A DNA stretch of 58,521 nt from a virus. The notes under the pieces were generated by a model. That model made no database searches. It was not told where the DNA came from and saw only the letters and a list, made by a program, of their open reading frames with translations. How positions within the stretch are numbered: the stretch's first letter is position 1; every line of letters begins with the position of its first letter. The DNA lies in the IMG/VR virus record IMGVR_UViG_3300046167_000389, positions 1 through 58,521 of that record; one strand, given 5' to 3'. The translations under genes were made by a program, and so were the position numbers. Positions 6,224 through 58,521 of this stretch are shown here, one piece after another.

Positions 6224-6534
6224 AACTCTATACCAACAACCAAGGACAGTGGTCAGGCACTCAGGCTGATGCTCGCAAGCGTTTTAAGAATGACATGCGC
6301 CTAGTCGAGGTTCCGGTAGACAAGCCCAATCTGCTTGCCTTCCTGAATGATAACGCAGTGGGTTCTTTCGAGGCTCTTGGTCACAAGCCAGAGCCAAACC
6401 CTGATCAACTATCCCCAATCGCAACAAGCTGGGTTTCTTGGGCCTTAGAGCGCCTACAGCACGGCCAGAAGAAGGACGCAGAAGAGATGCTTATCAAAGG
6501 TCTCAAGCTACAGAAGGAGATGGCTAATGGTTAA
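6220..6534 (+). CDS. Hypothetical protein, 104 aa
   Basis: The ATG at 6220 overlaps the TGA of the upstream gene, which favours it over the in-frame start at 6211. The protein has an N-terminal segment with QADARKRFKNDMR, a Pro-rich middle, and a C-terminal helix (ALERLQHGQKKDAEEMLIKG). It ends 8 bp inside the integrase gene, so integrase translation may depend on it. It sits where an excisionase could lie, but it is long for one and has no clear winged-helix motif. Confidence 0.6.
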   Translation: MKLYTNNQGQWSGTQADARKRFKNDMRLVEVPVDKPNLLAFLNDNAVGSFEALGHKPEPNPDQLSPIATSWVSWALERLQHGQKKDAEEMLIKGLKLQKEMANG

Positions 6535-7663
6535 AGCTCCCTACGTCAGGCCGCGCAGGTTAAGTAATGGGTGGGTCTACGACATCAGGCCTACTGATGA
6601 AGTGCTAGAGACTTTCCCGCATCTGAATGTTAAGCCACGGGAAAACTATACCTGTATTAGAGATGCCAATGCCCGTGGCTTTGAGATTAAGCGTCTGTTC
6701 GAGGCTCACAAAGCCGGTGAAGAAGTAGAGGTACGAGCAGACAGCCGCTCTGTCGCTGCGCTGGTGGACTACTACAAGGACAGCATGGCTTATACAAACA
6801 TCAAGGCCGCTTCTACCAAGCGGTCCTACGATGGTCATCTCAGTCATGTCCAACGTGTACACATAGGCAGTAAACCGTTCAGTAAGATGTTTGTGTCACA
6901 GGTGGATTACGAATACGCACAAAGATTGTGGTTACACATACAAGATGACGTAAGTACACACAAAGCCAACCACACATTCAAGGTGCTGAAGCTAGTATGG
7001 AACGAAGGTTTACGCGCAGGGAAAGTTAAATCTAACCCGTTCTCCTTAGTCAGGATACCCAAGCTACCGGACAGGCAGGTTATGTGGACCGTCGATCAGA
7101 TCAAGGGCATGGTGAAGTACTGTGATGAGCAGGGCTATCCAAGCATGGGTACTATGATCGTCATGTGTTATGAGTTCTGCCAGCGTCCGGTGGATGTACG
7201 CACTATGAAGTGGTCTAACATCGATGGGCGTACTGGTGTTAGTAACTTCATTCAGCAAAAGACCGGCAAGCAGATGTCTATCAAGGTAACCAACGCCGTT
7301 CAGGACAGGTTACATCTACATCAGCACCGTAACTCAGACGATTACATCTTCGCCTACGAGAATACTGGGCGTCCATATTCTGACGATAGATGTAATAAGT
7401 TCTTTCGTAAGCTGGCTGATGGTTATGGGCTACCTGAAGTGCCTCTACAAGGCAGGTTTAATAAAGATGGCAGTCAGATGTACTCTACGATCTGGTTAGC
7501 TGACTTACGACGAACTGGTATAACCCATGCCAGTCAGTCTGGCTGCTCTGACAGAGAGTTGATGGCTCTCTCAGGCCACAAGAACCCTCAGATGCTGGTT
7601 GTATACGCAGTAGAGGGCGAGATTGAATCTACCAATGCAAATATTAAACGAGGACTATTATAA
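6527..7663 (+). CDS. int: Tyrosine recombinase integrase
   Basis: This 378-aa site-specific recombinase would insert the phage into the host chromosome at the attachment site proposed at 8979-9021. Visible catalytic residues are Arg220 (EFCQRPVDVR), Lys245 (QQKTGK), Arg328 (LADLRRTG), His351 (LSGHKNP) and nucleophile Tyr360 (MLVVYAVEG). The SAM-like core-binding domain spans roughly 75-170. Box II normally reads HxxR; here it reads A325-D-L-R328, so one commonly conserved His is replaced. N-terminal residues 1-60 probably form the arm-binding domain. It is translationally coupled to the upstream gene and directly abuts thyX. Confidence 0.93.
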   Translation: MVKAPYVRPRRLSNGWVYDIRPTDEVLETFPHLNVKPRENYTCIRDANARGFEIKRLFEAHKAGEEVEVRADSRSVAALVDYYKDSMAYTNIKAASTKRSYDGHLSHVQRVHIGSKPFSKMFVSQVDYEYAQRLWLHIQDDVSTHKANHTFKVLKLVWNEGLRAGKVKSNPFSLVRIPKLPDRQVMWTVDQIKGMVKYCDEQGYPSMGTMIVMCYEFCQRPVDVRTMKWSNIDGRTGVSNFIQQKTGKQMSIKVTNAVQDRLHLHQHRNSDDYIFAYENTGRPYSDDRCNKFFRKLADGYGLPEVPLQGRFNKDGSQMYSTIWLADLRRTGITHASQSGCSDRELMALSGHKNPQMLVVYAVEGEIESTNANIKRGLL

Positions 7664-50453: not shown

Positions 50454-52601
50454 TACTGAACTTGACCTTGAGGTGGTTGCTGAGGTTGAGGTGCATTACC
50501 TCCATTTGCTCCACCGCCGCCGCCAGAGAAACCTGCCGCATCTGGTTCAGGTGCTTGTGACGCGCCTATGTTACCGCCGCCGTTTCCTGTTGGGTCTTGT
50601 ACGGAGGGTGCGCCGCCTTCAGGAGCCTGTCCTTCGGGTGCTTCTGGTTGTGGTGGCATCATAGCCTGAATCTCTGCCATCATCTTTTGTTGGATAGCCG
50701 CCTCGCGTGGATCGTTCAGTATCTTGTCTTCATCCAAGTCCATAGAGGACGCTAACTCACGTAAGATGTAGTCATACTTAACAAATGGTTGCATCGATGG
50801 GTTGGCTGTCATTTGCATAAACTGTAGCAGACGTTGACTGCGTACTTCATTACGCATCAAGCTTTCTGTACCACGGGCTTTTACTTCTAGGTCTCCAATA
50901 AATTCTTTATCGAAGTTAAACTGCATATTAAATGCAAACAGGCTTTTACCTAAAGGCGACAATAGATAGTCATCAATATTACGCACAACTGCTTTAATGT
51001 TCTGTGCCGCCGCACCCATCAACATAGACATACCAGATGCTGTTCGACCAACACCGCCTACGGCTCCTGAACCGTGTGTATATGATGGAATACCTGTAGC
51101 TTCATCTGCAAGCTGTCGGCTCTTATCAAACATCATCAAAAGCTCTTGGGATACGTTAGGGAACTTAGTACCGAAGATGGCTTGCCCCGGTGCGCCCGCC
51201 TGTCTACGGAAGACTTTGCCCGGATATACTGATAGGTCTTGCCCCGGAACTAGATTGGTCTCATCTACTTCTATTAGTAGGTTTCCAGATAAGGCTCCGT
51301 TATCTACAGCCATCCGCATAAAGCCGTTCATAAGCAGTTGCGTGTCTGTCATGTTCTCAGCTACGCCGATTCCAAAGAAGCTGTATGGATTTAGCTCATA
51401 GGGTACGGATAAGTATGGTATACGGGTAGGAGTAAACGGATTGAGTACTAGACGCAGTATTTGTCCGTTACAGACCCATATATTGACCTGTATTTCGTCC
51501 TGATCCTTTAATTCCTTGGGGATATCAATATCAGCTTCTTCAGCCAATTCTGCGTCTAATATGCCCCAATATTCGAGTACTTCGTAGCGTTCCATAGAAG
51601 ATGATACTGAATCGTCTTCTAGTGCGTCTTCCCAGTACTCTCGCTGGTAGTCTGCGCCATACTCTACCGCTAATTCGATGCTCTCTTCGCGGAAGTGAGG
51701 ACGTTTCTTGAGAGAACGCATCTGAGTGCGGTTCAGGCGGTGTCTCTGTATAGTAAATTCAGCCTCAGACATATTACGGGCGTCTGGGTCAGGGTAGAAA
51801 TCCCAAATGCTGACGTATTCCATCTTTGGGATTGTTTCAAACAGCGGATCGTAGTTACCTTCCTCATCCCAGCGGGGATATTCCTTGTCCATAGCAAATG
51901 GACCTTTAAATACGCCGGTTCCAAAGAGAGTACACTCAAATGCCACTGATCGAAGGTGCTTAGGGGCGTCAGTCTCATCCAACTGATCGTGCATAAGCTT
52001 TTCCATCTTCTGAGCGGCACGTTTAGCTGGCTCAAAGGTAATAGAACCCGGAGTTGAGTTAGCTCCTATTTCTAAATCGTCTTTTATTGGCTCCAGCCGC
52101 TCTTTGTAGAGTCCTAAATCCTTGGCTATGTCGGGTCGAGCGATTGAGACAGGTACTTGGTAGTCTACGTCTACCTTTTCCTTAACTTTTTCGTCTGTTA
52201 GGGCGTTTGGATTGTAGGAAACCTCTCCAGCTACGTTACTGGGGAACTGTCTGGCCTCAATACCAATAGGAAACTTCGATCCTGCAAATAATACGTCTAC
52301 TACTTGGGCATAAGCAGCCAAAACTTTAGTCTTAGTTACCTTTATGAAGGCCTTTAGACTTCTCAGTCTCCGTAAATTGTACTTCTGAGGAGTATAGGCC
52401 ACGATAATTACGATAAGAATCCAGCCAACGCTCTTCGTCAGCATATCTGGCGTCTTTCGAGCGGGTATACTGGCTATTAACAAAGGCCACTGCCCCAGAA
52501 TAGTTGATATTTTCCTCTACTACGTCACCGTCTTCGGCAAGAGGTACTGCAATGTCAGTATCTGTAACGTCTTCTGGTAGCGGTTTGTCCATTAATGCCA
52601 T
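50453..52601 (-). CDS. Portal protein (one frame break near N-terminus)
   Basis: The N-terminus lies in one frame (52601-52350; MALMDKPLPEDVTDTDIAVP, then YADEERWLDSYRNYRGLY) and the rest in another, joined by removing one base at AAAGG near 52345. The body shows portal features: GTGVFKGP, VSIWDFYPDPDA, RMAVDNGALSGN, ADEATGIPSYTHGSG with GVGRTASGMSMLM, and a disordered Gly/Pro/Gln-rich C-terminus from about residue 640. As a dodecamer it forms the DNA entry ring. Total about 716 aa, similar to other long podovirus portals. Confidence 0.88.
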
Positions 52602-52603
52602 AT

Positions 52604-54477
52604 TCAGTATCCAAATGTTGCGTCTGCGGGTCGCCAGACTTGTTGCGGAACGCCGTGGCCCATATCAAAGGGTGAGAATGCCTTCGGTCTGCTCATTACT
52701 GCGTACCTGACGCTGTCGTATGCGTGATCTGAGGCGTAGCGAGGGTCTATATCGTCTGATCCTCTAGGGTCTGCCGGTATGACGGGCAGGTCGGCAATGA
52801 TTTGTCGGCACGTATTGAAGAATTGTATCCCCGGAAGGCCTGTGTCCTCGTCTACTTTAAGGACTTCGTGCAGCCTGTTCTTGCCAGCTACTCTTGCGCC
52901 GTTGGTTCTGTCGCTAGGACGCCAACGTGTACCCTGTGAAATCATCTCTTCAGCTATGGATGGACCAAGTTGACCCCGCTGATGCCAGCAACTGGAGTCT
53001 AGAACTCCGTAGTCTATACGCGTCAGAGCCTTCAGCTTCCAGTACAGCCCTAGCTAGTCTCTTCCGGTATGCTTACTCAGGTATAATTCCCTGTAGCAGA
53101 CTAATGTATTATAGCTTGGGTCAATAGCGAACCAATGAACAGCAGCTATAAGAACTATATCCGTAGTCGCAGGACCGAAACCTACGCCAATCAGTTGGTA
53201 TTTCATACGGCTCAATAACGTGAACCTTTGACCTGAACTCTGAGAATGCCGCTCCGTCTGCAACTGCCCAGTCTCCTTCTAGTAATTGCCGCCGCTGCAT
53301 CTCAGGGAGAGATAGCAGGTTAGCCTCGTACTGACCGCCATCCATCAGGTAGGGGTTATCCTTGAGGCTTGCCGGTATAAACCGACGATAGAACAGTGGC
53401 TCTCCAGCCCTCTCATGGCTGTCTGGGTAGACCATGTCCTCGCCGGTCTCTATGTCCTTAGCAACGAACTTTGAGTTGGCTGGTGCAGGGTCTATGAAGG
53501 TACGCTTTACCCAGCCATGTCCACTACCGCCCGGATTGGTAGTCGCTCTCATGTAGATAGGCAGAGTAGGGTCTGTAGTTCTAAGCCTTGAGCGCATGTA
53601 GTTCCACGCGAAAGGGGTAGGGTACTGAGTTAGCTCATCGAAGGCCACGTAACTAAAGGCCTGACCCTGATAGCGAAGAACGTCTTGGTCTCTCTCTAAG
53701 TACGTTAGCCAGAGCTTGGCTCCGCTAGGAAACGTCCACTGTGACTTCTTCTCAGCCCACTTAGCTCCTTGGAATGCACGGGGGTATAACTCCTGCGATT
53801 TCCATATTAGTTCCTCTAAGCTCGTCATTGGTTCTACGAAGTATAAGGCCGTTGAAGTTAGGGTTGCTGAAGTAGCGCATCGGGTCTGCTAGTAAGCCAA
53901 ACGACTTGCCGCCACCGGCTGCACCGCCATAGAGTACTTCACGCTCAGAGGCAGCTAGAAACTCTGTCTGTGGACCCTCGTTAGGTGCGAAGACTACTTC
54001 CTGCTTCTGCTTCTCGCTCTCAATCACAGAGAAGTCTAGATTGGCAGTGTCCAACTCCTCGTTGGGCTGTAACTCTGCTAACTGCTTCTTAGCGATAGTC
54101 AGTCTGCGTTTGGCGTCCGACTGCTTGCGCTTTGCAGTTGCTAGGGTCTTCTCTTCCTTAGTCTTAGGCTTACGCTTGCGGTTATCCTTAGCAAGCTGCT
54201 TCAGGCGCTTGGATGGATTGTCACTCTTAGGCCCTCTGTGAGCCTTCCAGATGTGTATCAGACCTTGATGAGATATCTTATCTCCGGTCTTGGACGTTAA
54301 CCACTCAGCGGTCTTACGGCTGGAGTGACCCTCTTCCAAGTAGTCCATAGCCTCTTCGACTAGAGCGGCCTTCTCCATGTCAGCTACTACGACTAAGGGA
54401 TCATGTTCAGAAACCTTGTAGGCGTAGGGTATTTTAGCTGTCTTGTTAGGTCTTGTCTTATTTAACCAGATACTCAA
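52604..54477 (-). CDS. terL: Terminase large subunit (several frame breaks)
   Basis: This ATP-driven packaging motor and nuclease is split over at least three frames. 54477-53761 holds a basic coiled N-terminal extension and the Walker A region LYGGAAGGGKSFGLL. 53828-53121 holds the Walker B VAFDELTQYP, the coupling segment ATTNPGGSGHGWVKRTFID and a nuclease Asp in CDYGYSS. Short frames around 53180-52950 carry AVHWFAIDPSYNTL and LDSSCWHQRGQLGPSIAEEM. 52945-52604 holds the C-terminal HAYDSVRYAVMSRP. All parts are in order and collinear, so I annotate one gene with breaks near 53825, 53150, 53060 and 52990. Confidence 0.85.
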
Positions 54478-54849
54478 TCGTCGCTCTTCGGTGGCAGAAT
54501 AAACATAGCCCCGCCCGTGTTCTTAACTTCTAGCTGCTCTTTCTTAATCAGGCCGGTGCGGTCCAGTAGCTGAGAGGCGGCTGCAATAGAGTTACGTGCG
54601 CCCATAGCCCCCGGATCGTCTAGCACATCAACCATGCTCCACGCTGCCTTAGTGGAGTTCATAGCAAGCACCATAGAGGCCTCGCTCGTTAATCTCATCT
54701 TTCAAGGCAGATACAACTATGCGGCTGTGGGTAGTTTCTGCGTACCCAGCTACCTTCATAGCCTTCTTGATATTACCCTTACACTCATCCGACATCAGGG
54801 CGTCTAAGAAGAGCAATTGCTTGTCGGTGTATTCCTTCTCAGTCTTCAT
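54474..54849 (-). CDS. terS: Terminase small subunit (one frame break)
   Basis: It begins at 54849 (MKTEKEYTDKQLLFLDALMS, then IKKAMKVAGYAETTH, a typical TerS helix-turn-helix). One extra G in GAGGCC near 54677 breaks the frame. Corrected, it continues ERASMVLAMNSTKAAWSMVD to GGAMFILPPKSDD. TerS recognises the phage DNA and recruits TerL. The start overlaps the previous stop (ATGA) and the stop overlaps the TerL start. Total about 124 aa. Confidence 0.82.
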
Positions 54850-56469: not shown

Positions 56470-56612
56470 TACTTCTTCTTTTTCTTCATAGCCATGCCGC
56501 CGTAGCTCATAGCTGGCTTCTTCTTCATAGCCATACCGCCCATGTTAAACTTAGGCATAGTACGCTGCTTTGCTGGGGGCATGTCGGCCCCACACTTCTT
56601 ACCCTTCATCAT
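56469..56612 (-). CDS. Met/Lys-rich repeat microprotein, 47 aa
   Basis: The protein contains two copies of GGMAMKKK and several KK pairs (MMKGKKCGADMPPAKQRTMP; end MAMKKKKK). The simple Met/Lys pattern is frequent in small proteins of marine phages; it may bind nucleic acid or membrane. GAGGAGTTTG provides its ribosome-binding site inside the end of the upstream gene. Confidence 0.65.
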   Translation of the reverse strand: MMKGKKCGADMPPAKQRTMPKFNMGGMAMKKKPAMSYGGMAMKKKKK

Positions 56613-56856
56613 CAAACTCCTCTTCTAATAACTCTGGTATGAATCTCTTTGGATCTAATGGAACATCTACTGAACAGTCTTCTGTGGCGAAGTATCTTCC
56701 GTAGCCGTCGAACTCTTGGGCTAAGGGATTATCCCTCAACTCCTTGTCAGAGATCAGGCCTTCTTCCAGTAGTAATCTTCTGATGTGATCGAACTTCAGG
56801 ATCTGTCCTGTTCGTTCTTGGATCGCTGCACGAATATAGTACAGATTAAATGTCAT
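56599..56856 (-). CDS. Hypothetical protein, 85 aa
   Basis: This is the first gene downstream of the leftward promoter at 56875-56904, so the first of the late transcript. It begins MTFNLYYIRAAIQERTGQIL with a helical segment (KFDHIRRLLLEEGLISDKEL) that looks like a small winged-helix or DnaA-like helix pair, and ends in an acidic tail. A regulatory role is possible by position; unproven. Confidence 0.6.
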   Translation of the reverse strand: MTFNLYYIRAAIQERTGQILKFDHIRRLLLEEGLISDKELRDNPLAQEFDGYGRYFATEDCSVDVPLDPKRFIPELLEEEFDDEG

Positions 56857-56874: not shown

Positions 56875-56904
56875 ATTGTAACATTTTATATGGCCCTCGG
56901 TCAA
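56875..56904 (-). promoter_or_regulatory. Leftward late promoter
   Basis: On the minus strand TTGACC, an 18-bp spacer, then TACAAT, 18 bp before the start at 56856. It is placed to drive the terminase-portal-capsid block and is divergent from the plus-strand promoter 34 bp away. Confidence 0.75.
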
Positions 56905-56937
56905 GGGCTTAATTAATCATCTTGTTAAGTATTTTTA

Positions 56938-56966
56938 TTGACAACTAGCTGATTAATTTGTATAAT
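56938..56966 (+). promoter_or_regulatory. Perfect consensus sigma70 promoter, rightward
   Basis: TTGACA (56938-56943), exactly 17 bp, TATAAT (56961-56966). It is the best promoter in the window, yet it points into a region where all annotated genes run leftward, so its product is either a small RNA or an antisense transcript. Confidence 0.85.
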
Positions 56967-56971
56967 GAATT

Positions 56972-57030
56972 GTCGGTTGAGTGGTTAACTATATAGATAG
57001 CCTAACTCACCCTAGTATGGGGTGTAGTAG
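56972..57030 (+). ncRNA. Candidate small RNA from the consensus promoter
   Basis: Transcription from the promoter at 56938 would start near 56973. A hairpin CACCC-TAGTATG-GGGTG at 57008-57024 follows and is trailed by TAGTAGTTT, a weak terminator at best. No open reading frame of useful size follows on this strand. The boundaries are guesses. Confidence 0.35.
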
Positions 57031-57045
57031 TTTACTCTAAGTAAT

Positions 57046-57231
57046 CTACCCGCCGTAGACCTTGTGGTAGATTTCTCCCCGACTAATTCCCATATCCTTT
57101 AACTGTTTGTCGGATAGGTTCTTCAACTGCCAGTAGTCTACCCGCCGTTGCTGCATATCCTGCATCTTCTTGACTATGGCTGCGTCACCTACAAAGGTGT
57201 GGACCATCACTGCAAACATCTTTCCAAACAT
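57046..57231 (-). CDS. DUF1127 protein, 61 aa
   Basis: The C-terminal RRVDYWQLKNLSDKQLKDMG with ISRGEI is the DUF1127 (YjiS-like) signature, a short domain common in alphaproteobacterial chromosomes. In some of these bacteria it affects phosphate, carbon and RNA metabolism. I chose the ATG at 57231 because AAGGAGATAG precedes it; the in-frame ATG at 57261 has no such site. A host-like regulator in the early block may retune host metabolism; this is inference. Confidence 0.82.
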   Translation of the reverse strand: MFGKMFAVMVHTFVGDAAIVKKMQDMQQRRVDYWQLKNLSDKQLKDMGISRGEIYHKVYGG

Positions 57232-57309
57232 ATCTATCTCCTTAGCTGTATGTGGTATCATTATACCAACTACGCCAACTAGGTAGTAGATAGATAAGGC
57301 GAATACCCG

Positions 57310-57696: not shown

Positions 57697-58018
57697 AGTC
57701 AGTGTCAAAAAGATCAGCAACTACTTCGTCGCTTACTTCTATCGTCTGAGCTAAATCCCTGAGCTTAGTAGCTTCCTTAGTGAGTTCAGAGGCTATGTCG
57801 TATAACTCCCCGTACTCCGACTCCGCATTGTCCAAGACAAACTGAGTAATCTCCCAGAATGGTTTCTGGATAGTCACCTTCTCATCCTCACCAACTTCCA
57901 AAGTAGTCTGTAGGTACAGCATCCCTGAGTCTGGTACTTGCAAGTCGTGGTCTAAGAAAAACGGTAGCCCGTCAGCAAACAGGACTCCATCTTCTCCGCA
58001 GTCATTATCATTAGCCAT
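57680..58018 (-). CDS. Hypothetical acidic protein, 112 aa
   Basis: This is the first leftward gene from the promoter at 58054-58083. It is strongly acidic (MANDNDCGEDGVLFADGLPF start, TIEVSDEVVADLFDTDYDPT end), with a helical middle. Acidic proteins expressed first in phages often block host enzymes or mimic DNA; no motif confirms it. The start is clear, directly downstream of the promoter. Confidence 0.62.
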   Translation of the reverse strand: MANDNDCGEDGVLFADGLPFFLDHDLQVPDSGMLYLQTTLEVGEDEKVTIQKPFWEITQFVLDNAESEYGELYDIASELTKEATKLRDLAQTIEVSDEVVADLFDTDYDPTA

Positions 58019-58053
58019 AGGTAATCCAAATAAATAAATAAAATATGCCGCTA

Positions 58054-58104
58054 AGTATATACGAACTTAGCAACACTTTACAAGTGCCTTTGCTAATTTG
58101 CTAA
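58054..58104 (-). promoter_or_regulatory. Leftward early promoter with operator-like repeats
   Basis: On the minus strand TTGTAA (58078-58083), 18-bp spacer, TATACT (58054-58059). Around the -35 lie TTAGCAA (58067-58073) and two inverted copies TTGCTAA (58090-58096, 58098-58104), plus CACTT-TAC-AAGTG at 58074-58086. This is a good operator arrangement for the 58018 gene. Confidence 0.65.
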
Positions 58105-58198
58105 CTACTGAAGTAGTACGTTGACGGATTATTCTGCTGGAGTAATCGGCTGGGAGCCATTTACAGTTGCTATTTTCTAAAAATAGGTGGGAGTTGTA
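58105..58198. other. Short stretch between early promoter and right repeat
   Basis: I see no gene. A TTGACG at 58131-58136 could be part of a rightward promoter leading into the repeat, but no good -10 follows at 16-18 bp. Confidence 0.4.
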
Positions 58199-58521
58199 CA
58201 CAGATCTGTGGGGGTAGGGGGTGGCAGTCGCCCCGGTCGGCCCGACGATCAGAAAAATAGATTGATTTATGCCGATTTCTTTAAGTCATTGTTTTTATTA
58301 TATTTTTTATTAATCTATGACTGAATAGTTCACGGGCTGATCGTAATTTTAAAAGTAAAATCAATTGCTTAGATAAAACTGGCTCATAGAATACTGGCAG
58401 AATATGCAATTAATCAGAATATTGTGACAAAAAAGCACCAGCCGTGCCATCGATCCAGACCATCGTGCAGGGTGGCTGCTGGCTGACGATCACCAGACGC
58501 TGGGGCGGGAAGCGGCTTTGT
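58199..58521. repeat. Right copy of 323-bp imperfect terminal repeat
   Basis: Same orientation as 1-323, gapless, with about 14 substitutions. Differences include CTGTG for CTAGA near its start, CTGATCGTA for ATGACTGTG in the middle and ATCACC for AACATC near its end. No gene is seen in it. Confidence 0.9.

Follow-up and report, generated by a model that had tools for sequence, protein, structure and literature searches.

Phage lambda carries in pR' a strong promoter with a conserved initially transcribed region, from which a short leader RNA is made. A class of phage boundary RNAs is represented by OOP (PMC12197685), which in lambda is transcribed from the pO promoter as an antisense RNA to the 3' end of cII. 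In alphaproteobacteria, the CIN1 locus contains CcaF1 and the CcsR sRNAs, and the Rhodobacter protein CcaF1 is a 71-aa RNA-binding DUF1127 protein that is co-transcribed with sRNAs and matures them (PMC10253847). The HMO-2011-type phages are considered a dominant group of marine viruses (PMC9038755), and phages of this group can be temperate, such as CRP-3, which integrates at tRNA-Met (PMC6918029). The word 'promoter' was not found in the text of the HMO-2011-type phage papers searched, which is no proof that the arrangement presented here is undescribed.

The DNA analysed here (the window) comprises all 58,521 nucleotides of the IMG/VR record IMGVR_UViG_3300046167_000389 and belongs to an HMO-2011-type phage, the portal protein of which shares 89% identity with its counterpart in Roseobacter phage CRP-738. 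The sequence at positions 1-323 is directly repeated at 58199-58521 (323 bp, 95.7% identity with 14 mismatches and no gaps), and the record thus probably covers a complete molecule of ~58.2 kb whose ends overlap and contain errors. At 52341-54849, comparison with CRP-738 shows the terminase large subunit broken into three frames and both the portal and the terminase small subunit into two, probably through sequencing indels in the record rather than biology. In addition, a tyrosine integrase gene (Pfam PF00589) is located at 6527-7663, and a temperate lifestyle, which has been shown for the relative CRP-3, is possible for this phage too. The noncoding gap formed by 58018-58521 and 1-216 includes the cumulative GC-skew minimum, contains CACAGATCTGTGGGGGTAGGGGGTGG and is a candidate replication origin; HMO-2011, CRP-1 and CRP-345 have a similar CCTGATCTGTGTA...CACCCCC stretch, recognised by eye, in their noncoding gap.

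The divergent promoter pair and its conservation

The plus strand at 56938-56966 carries a sigma70 promoter that matches the consensus at all 12 positions, with TTGACA at 56938-56943 and TATAAT at 56961-56966 separated by a 17-bp spacer, within the 16–18 bp spacing of sigma70 promoters. A perfect match with this spacer in ~300 bp did not arise in any of 2000 shuffles, and the window contains a single exact TTGAC-N18-TATAAT, as do the first 50 kb of CRP-738, where it occupies the homologous place. The weak promoter matches in the region showed no excess over chance (7 versus 10.1 expected). On the minus strand, a divergent promoter (TTGACC-18-TACAAT with a TG extension) is located at 56875-56904, upstream of the minus-strand gene at 56599-56856, which encodes a conserved protein of 85 aa with no Pfam or PHROG match and is the first gene of the putative late operon. 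This operon holds the capsid and packaging genes, and the labels early and late were assigned to both operons from their gene content. The A/T-rich spacer between the two -35 boxes (56905-56937) measures 33 bp. The original prediction had the perfect plus-strand promoter and the divergent late promoter right, and it was silent on the near-fixed spacing and the conserved initially transcribed region found here.

A lack of conservation in relatives was one half of the refuting condition set beforehand, and the prediction withstood this half. Because a set of relatives collected by a 21-base exact match is invariant by construction, conservation was measured on 50 non-redundant relatives collected with the 85-aa protein as anchor, the promoter itself not being used. 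Upstream of the anchor gene the plus promoter scores ≥10.5 in 43, ≥11.5 in 35 and is perfect in 10 of these 50 relatives, against shuffle rates of 3.4%, 0.2% and 0%, respectively; the relatives are not phylogenetically independent, and such counts overstate the number of independent observations. The minus promoter scores ≥11 in 40 of the 50 versus 0.5% of the shuffles. Furthermore, the gap between the -35 boxes, which ranges from 9 to 58 bp over the whole set, is 33 or 34 bp in 23 relatives (shuffles: mean 1.3, maximum 5), and it stays at 33–36 bp in L116, L208, L209, L181 and L188 despite a late-gene leader that is longer by ~100 bp or more. Among named phages, CRP-738, CRP-3, CRP-235 and CRP-212 carry this promoter arrangement, either as such or weakened, and similar pairs with gaps of ~40, 19 and 17 bp lie upstream of the terminase small subunit gene in the Pelagibacter phages HTVC033P, HTVC103P and HTVC115P, respectively. 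A near-perfect plus promoter is thus found back-to-back with the late promoter, at a near-fixed distance, in a large part of the HMO-2011-type phages. The plus promoter was not found in the examined stretch of HMO-2011, CRP-1, CRP-345, CRP-9 and CRP-207, and thus not all members of the HMO-2011 group need the module. A scan of genome contigs for host copies yielded a Rhodobacteraceae MAG contig with the full context (L219); an Acidobacteria contig matched in the same scan is without the -35 box and was taken as a chance match.

The predicted RNA and the gene opposing it

Transcription from the plus promoter is predicted to start near 56972. The discriminator and the conserved initially transcribed region, GAATTGTCGGTTGAGTGGTTAACTATATAG, occupy 56967-56996 of the plus strand, and the consensus around the -10 box reads TGgTATAATGAatTGTcgnTTGAGnGG...TACTATAkAG, with conservation fading ~35 bases downstream of the -10 box; the first ~30 transcribed bases are conserved (a G-rich run, then UAUACUAUAKAG) and the remainder varies fast. 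The motif WACTATAKAG, considered as a phage promoter repeated across the genome, was rejected with a single occurrence in the window. The body of the predicted noncoding RNA (~85 nt) was placed at 56972-57056 on the plus strand, with an uncertain 3' end that could reach ~57083. The plus-strand hairpin at 57008-57024 (CACCC TAGTATG GGGTG), where a short RNA had been expected to end, is present in the window, but it is followed by no T-run and is a variable cassette in relatives, so that it was rejected as a terminator and would be internal to the RNA. A second plus-strand hairpin, GTAGTTTACTCTAAGTAATCTAC, at 57027-57049 adjoins the stop codon of the DUF1127 gene. A canonical terminator was not found in the window's own group; a hairpin with a T-run lies 40–105 nt downstream in L049, L054, L058 and CRP-3, and another is readable in HTVC115P. 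Some of the RNAs (in L180, L021, L158, L098 and L104) contain a small CTCTAAGTCACCCTAGTATGGG-like cassette that is missing in close relatives, as if it were mobile or recombining.

For the RNA of the window group, pairing between the 5' and 3' ends is predicted at -9 to -21 kcal/mol. One compensatory change was observed, GCGA(C/T) being found downstream in 5 of 6 sequences with 5' GTCGC and in 0 of 29 with 5' GTCGG, and it could reflect just one or two evolutionary events. The test of own versus swapped end pairing gave p=0.09, folding was more structured than in shuffles, with a mean z of -1.7 over 18 members of the group and -2.9 for 119 nt of the window, and RNAalifold on the MAFFT alignment of the group returned no consensus structure; the structure is therefore plausible but not proven. 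By-eye alignment revealed no conserved reading frame in the transcript, since there are amino-acid-changing substitutions and frame-shifting indels and the stop position is not kept; a micro-ORF (TTG TCG GTT GAG...) was rejected because, by eye, its frame is not maintained across relatives. Rfam gave no family at the gathering score (a single chance match was far below it), and a tRNA or tRNA-like RNA was discarded with no ARAGORN or Rfam match. Considering that the start is conserved, that no coding frame is kept, that relatives have a hairpin with a T-run and that the ends can pair in the window group, a short noncoding RNA from the plus promoter is likely. The short RNA of the original prediction is thus retained as the best reading, with its end at the hairpin given up.

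The plus promoter faces a block of minus-strand genes, as had been noted, but it does not fire away from all genes, because its transcript would reach, ~75 nt downstream, the 3' end of a minus-strand gene at 57046-57261 that encodes a 71-aa DUF1127 protein (Pfam PF06568, E=3.1e-8). A promoter of its own, directed against an early gene at its 3' end ('early' again by gene content), is a trait that the predicted RNA has in common with OOP-like RNAs. However, such RNAs also keep the identity of the opposed gene, which is not constant among the 50 representatives: it is DUF1127 in 32 of them, with another or no identified gene elsewhere, and in at least three (L148, L149 and L161) endonuclease VII comes first. 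As the opposing gene varies, the conserved role is not that of antisense control over a particular gene, and the suggested antisense action against the early block does not hold as a conserved function for any one gene.

Possible roles of the divergent module

We assume, with about even confidence, that the plus promoter is the plus half of a divergent promoter module conserved at the boundary of the early and late operons, and that this module, with the short noncoding RNA made from it, most likely works in cis. Starting near 56972, the host's sigma70 RNA polymerase would synthesise an RNA whose length differs among phages (~45–110 nt) and which runs toward the 3' end of the leftward early operon; the late operon would be started by the partner promoter at a distance of 33 bp. 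Leftward transcripts reading through from the early operon would be halted or destroyed by transcription at this site and by its RNA, and the firing of the late promoter would be affected through the shared A/T-rich spacer. A local cis role is favoured because place, spacing and start region are constant while the RNA body and the opposing gene vary; what speaks against it is that the first ~30 transcribed bases are more conserved than a pure read-through blocker needs. The plus promoter is thus a likely candidate control point of infection. More tentatively, it is possible that the HMO-2011-type phages time the change from early to late expression by two back-to-back host-polymerase promoters ~33 bp apart, one of which produces a noncoding RNA; the moment at which the late operon fires would then depend on the occupancy of the promoters or on the transcript. 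A near-fixed divergent pair with a noncoding arm would make the control of the early-to-late switch testable at a concrete site, and the promoter module could serve as a tag for locating the RNA in marine metatranscriptomes.

It seems rather unlikely that the RNA acts in trans as a small RNA pairing with host or phage mRNAs via its conserved 5' segment (GUCGGUUGAGYGGU..ACUAUAUAG). Within the RNA, conservation lies in this segment, and the frequent DUF1127 neighbour (32/50) recalls the sRNA-maturing CcaF1 of the same 71 aa (PMC10253847). Nevertheless, the segment varies between phage groups and its predicted pairing partner in the window group is the 3' end of the same RNA, the best match in a crude screen of CRP-738 translation starts was about one standard deviation from shuffles, and the promoter and start region remain where the neighbour is not DUF1127.

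Ranked after it, and also unlikely, is the explanation that the RNA is a by-product and that the promoter and start region form a DNA or polymerase device (slow escape, pausing or a start-site operator) tuning the late promoter. Escape is expected to be the limiting step at a near-consensus promoter, which would suit such a device, as would the near-fixed promoter spacing and a short palindrome directly behind the -10 box in many relatives outside the window group. Stems of ≥4 bp occur behind the -10 box in 22 of 49 sequences, compared with 2–3 of 49 at upstream positions and 10–29 at downstream controls, and the expected start site comes only after the left arm, so that the palindrome may be a DNA element. 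But stems are common at downstream offsets too, the palindrome is absent from the window group, and several relatives have true terminators downstream. The arms of the palindromes behind the -10 box differ among L185, L196, L091, L181, L032 and L060 (GAAGTGTACTTC, CCTAATTGTGGTTAGG, GGAGTTGTCCCTCC and others).

A transcription-primed replication origin, in which the promoter, the G-rich initial transcript and the A/T-alternating stretch lead to R-loop priming of DNA synthesis, is very improbable. A G-run followed by TATATATA is common in relatives, and the cumulative GC-skew minimum is ~1.2 kb away in both the window and CRP-738; however, this minimum falls in the longer noncoding gap beyond 58018 instead, and early terminators in several relatives also argue against priming. 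Finally, a chance or vestigial promoter without use is hardly credible: it would fit the five phages whose examined region lacks the promoter, but not its strong conservation at a fixed position and spacing in divergent relatives, and a chance origin is already excluded by the shuffle comparisons of promoter and gap.

Comparison with CIN1, pR' and OOP

The proposed cis-acting module resembles several known systems in part. As in the CIN1 locus, a 71-aa DUF1127 protein is encoded beside a putative noncoding RNA, here in a roseophage-related phage. In CIN1 the sRNAs are co-transcribed downstream of the DUF1127 gene, whereas the RNA here is on the opposite strand, has no Rfam match and in some relatives stands without DUF1127 beside it; the strand difference makes the CcaF1 parallel a lead only. 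The strong promoter, the conserved initially transcribed region and the short predicted RNA are reminiscent of lambda pR', but here there are no same-strand downstream genes within the block, hence no target for a leader or antitermination, and the late genes start from the opposite promoter. With OOP, the predicted RNA shares its short noncoding nature, its own promoter, its direction against an early gene's 3' end and its place at an operon boundary, and it belongs to a phage group with members that can be temperate. It differs from OOP in the variable opposing gene, in a promoter that is spacing-locked to the late promoter, in having no clear terminator in the window subgroup and in having no identified repressor circuit. 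Although it is not filed as an OOP-like member, since the opposed gene is not conserved, the plus-strand RNA may work like phage boundary RNAs such as OOP.
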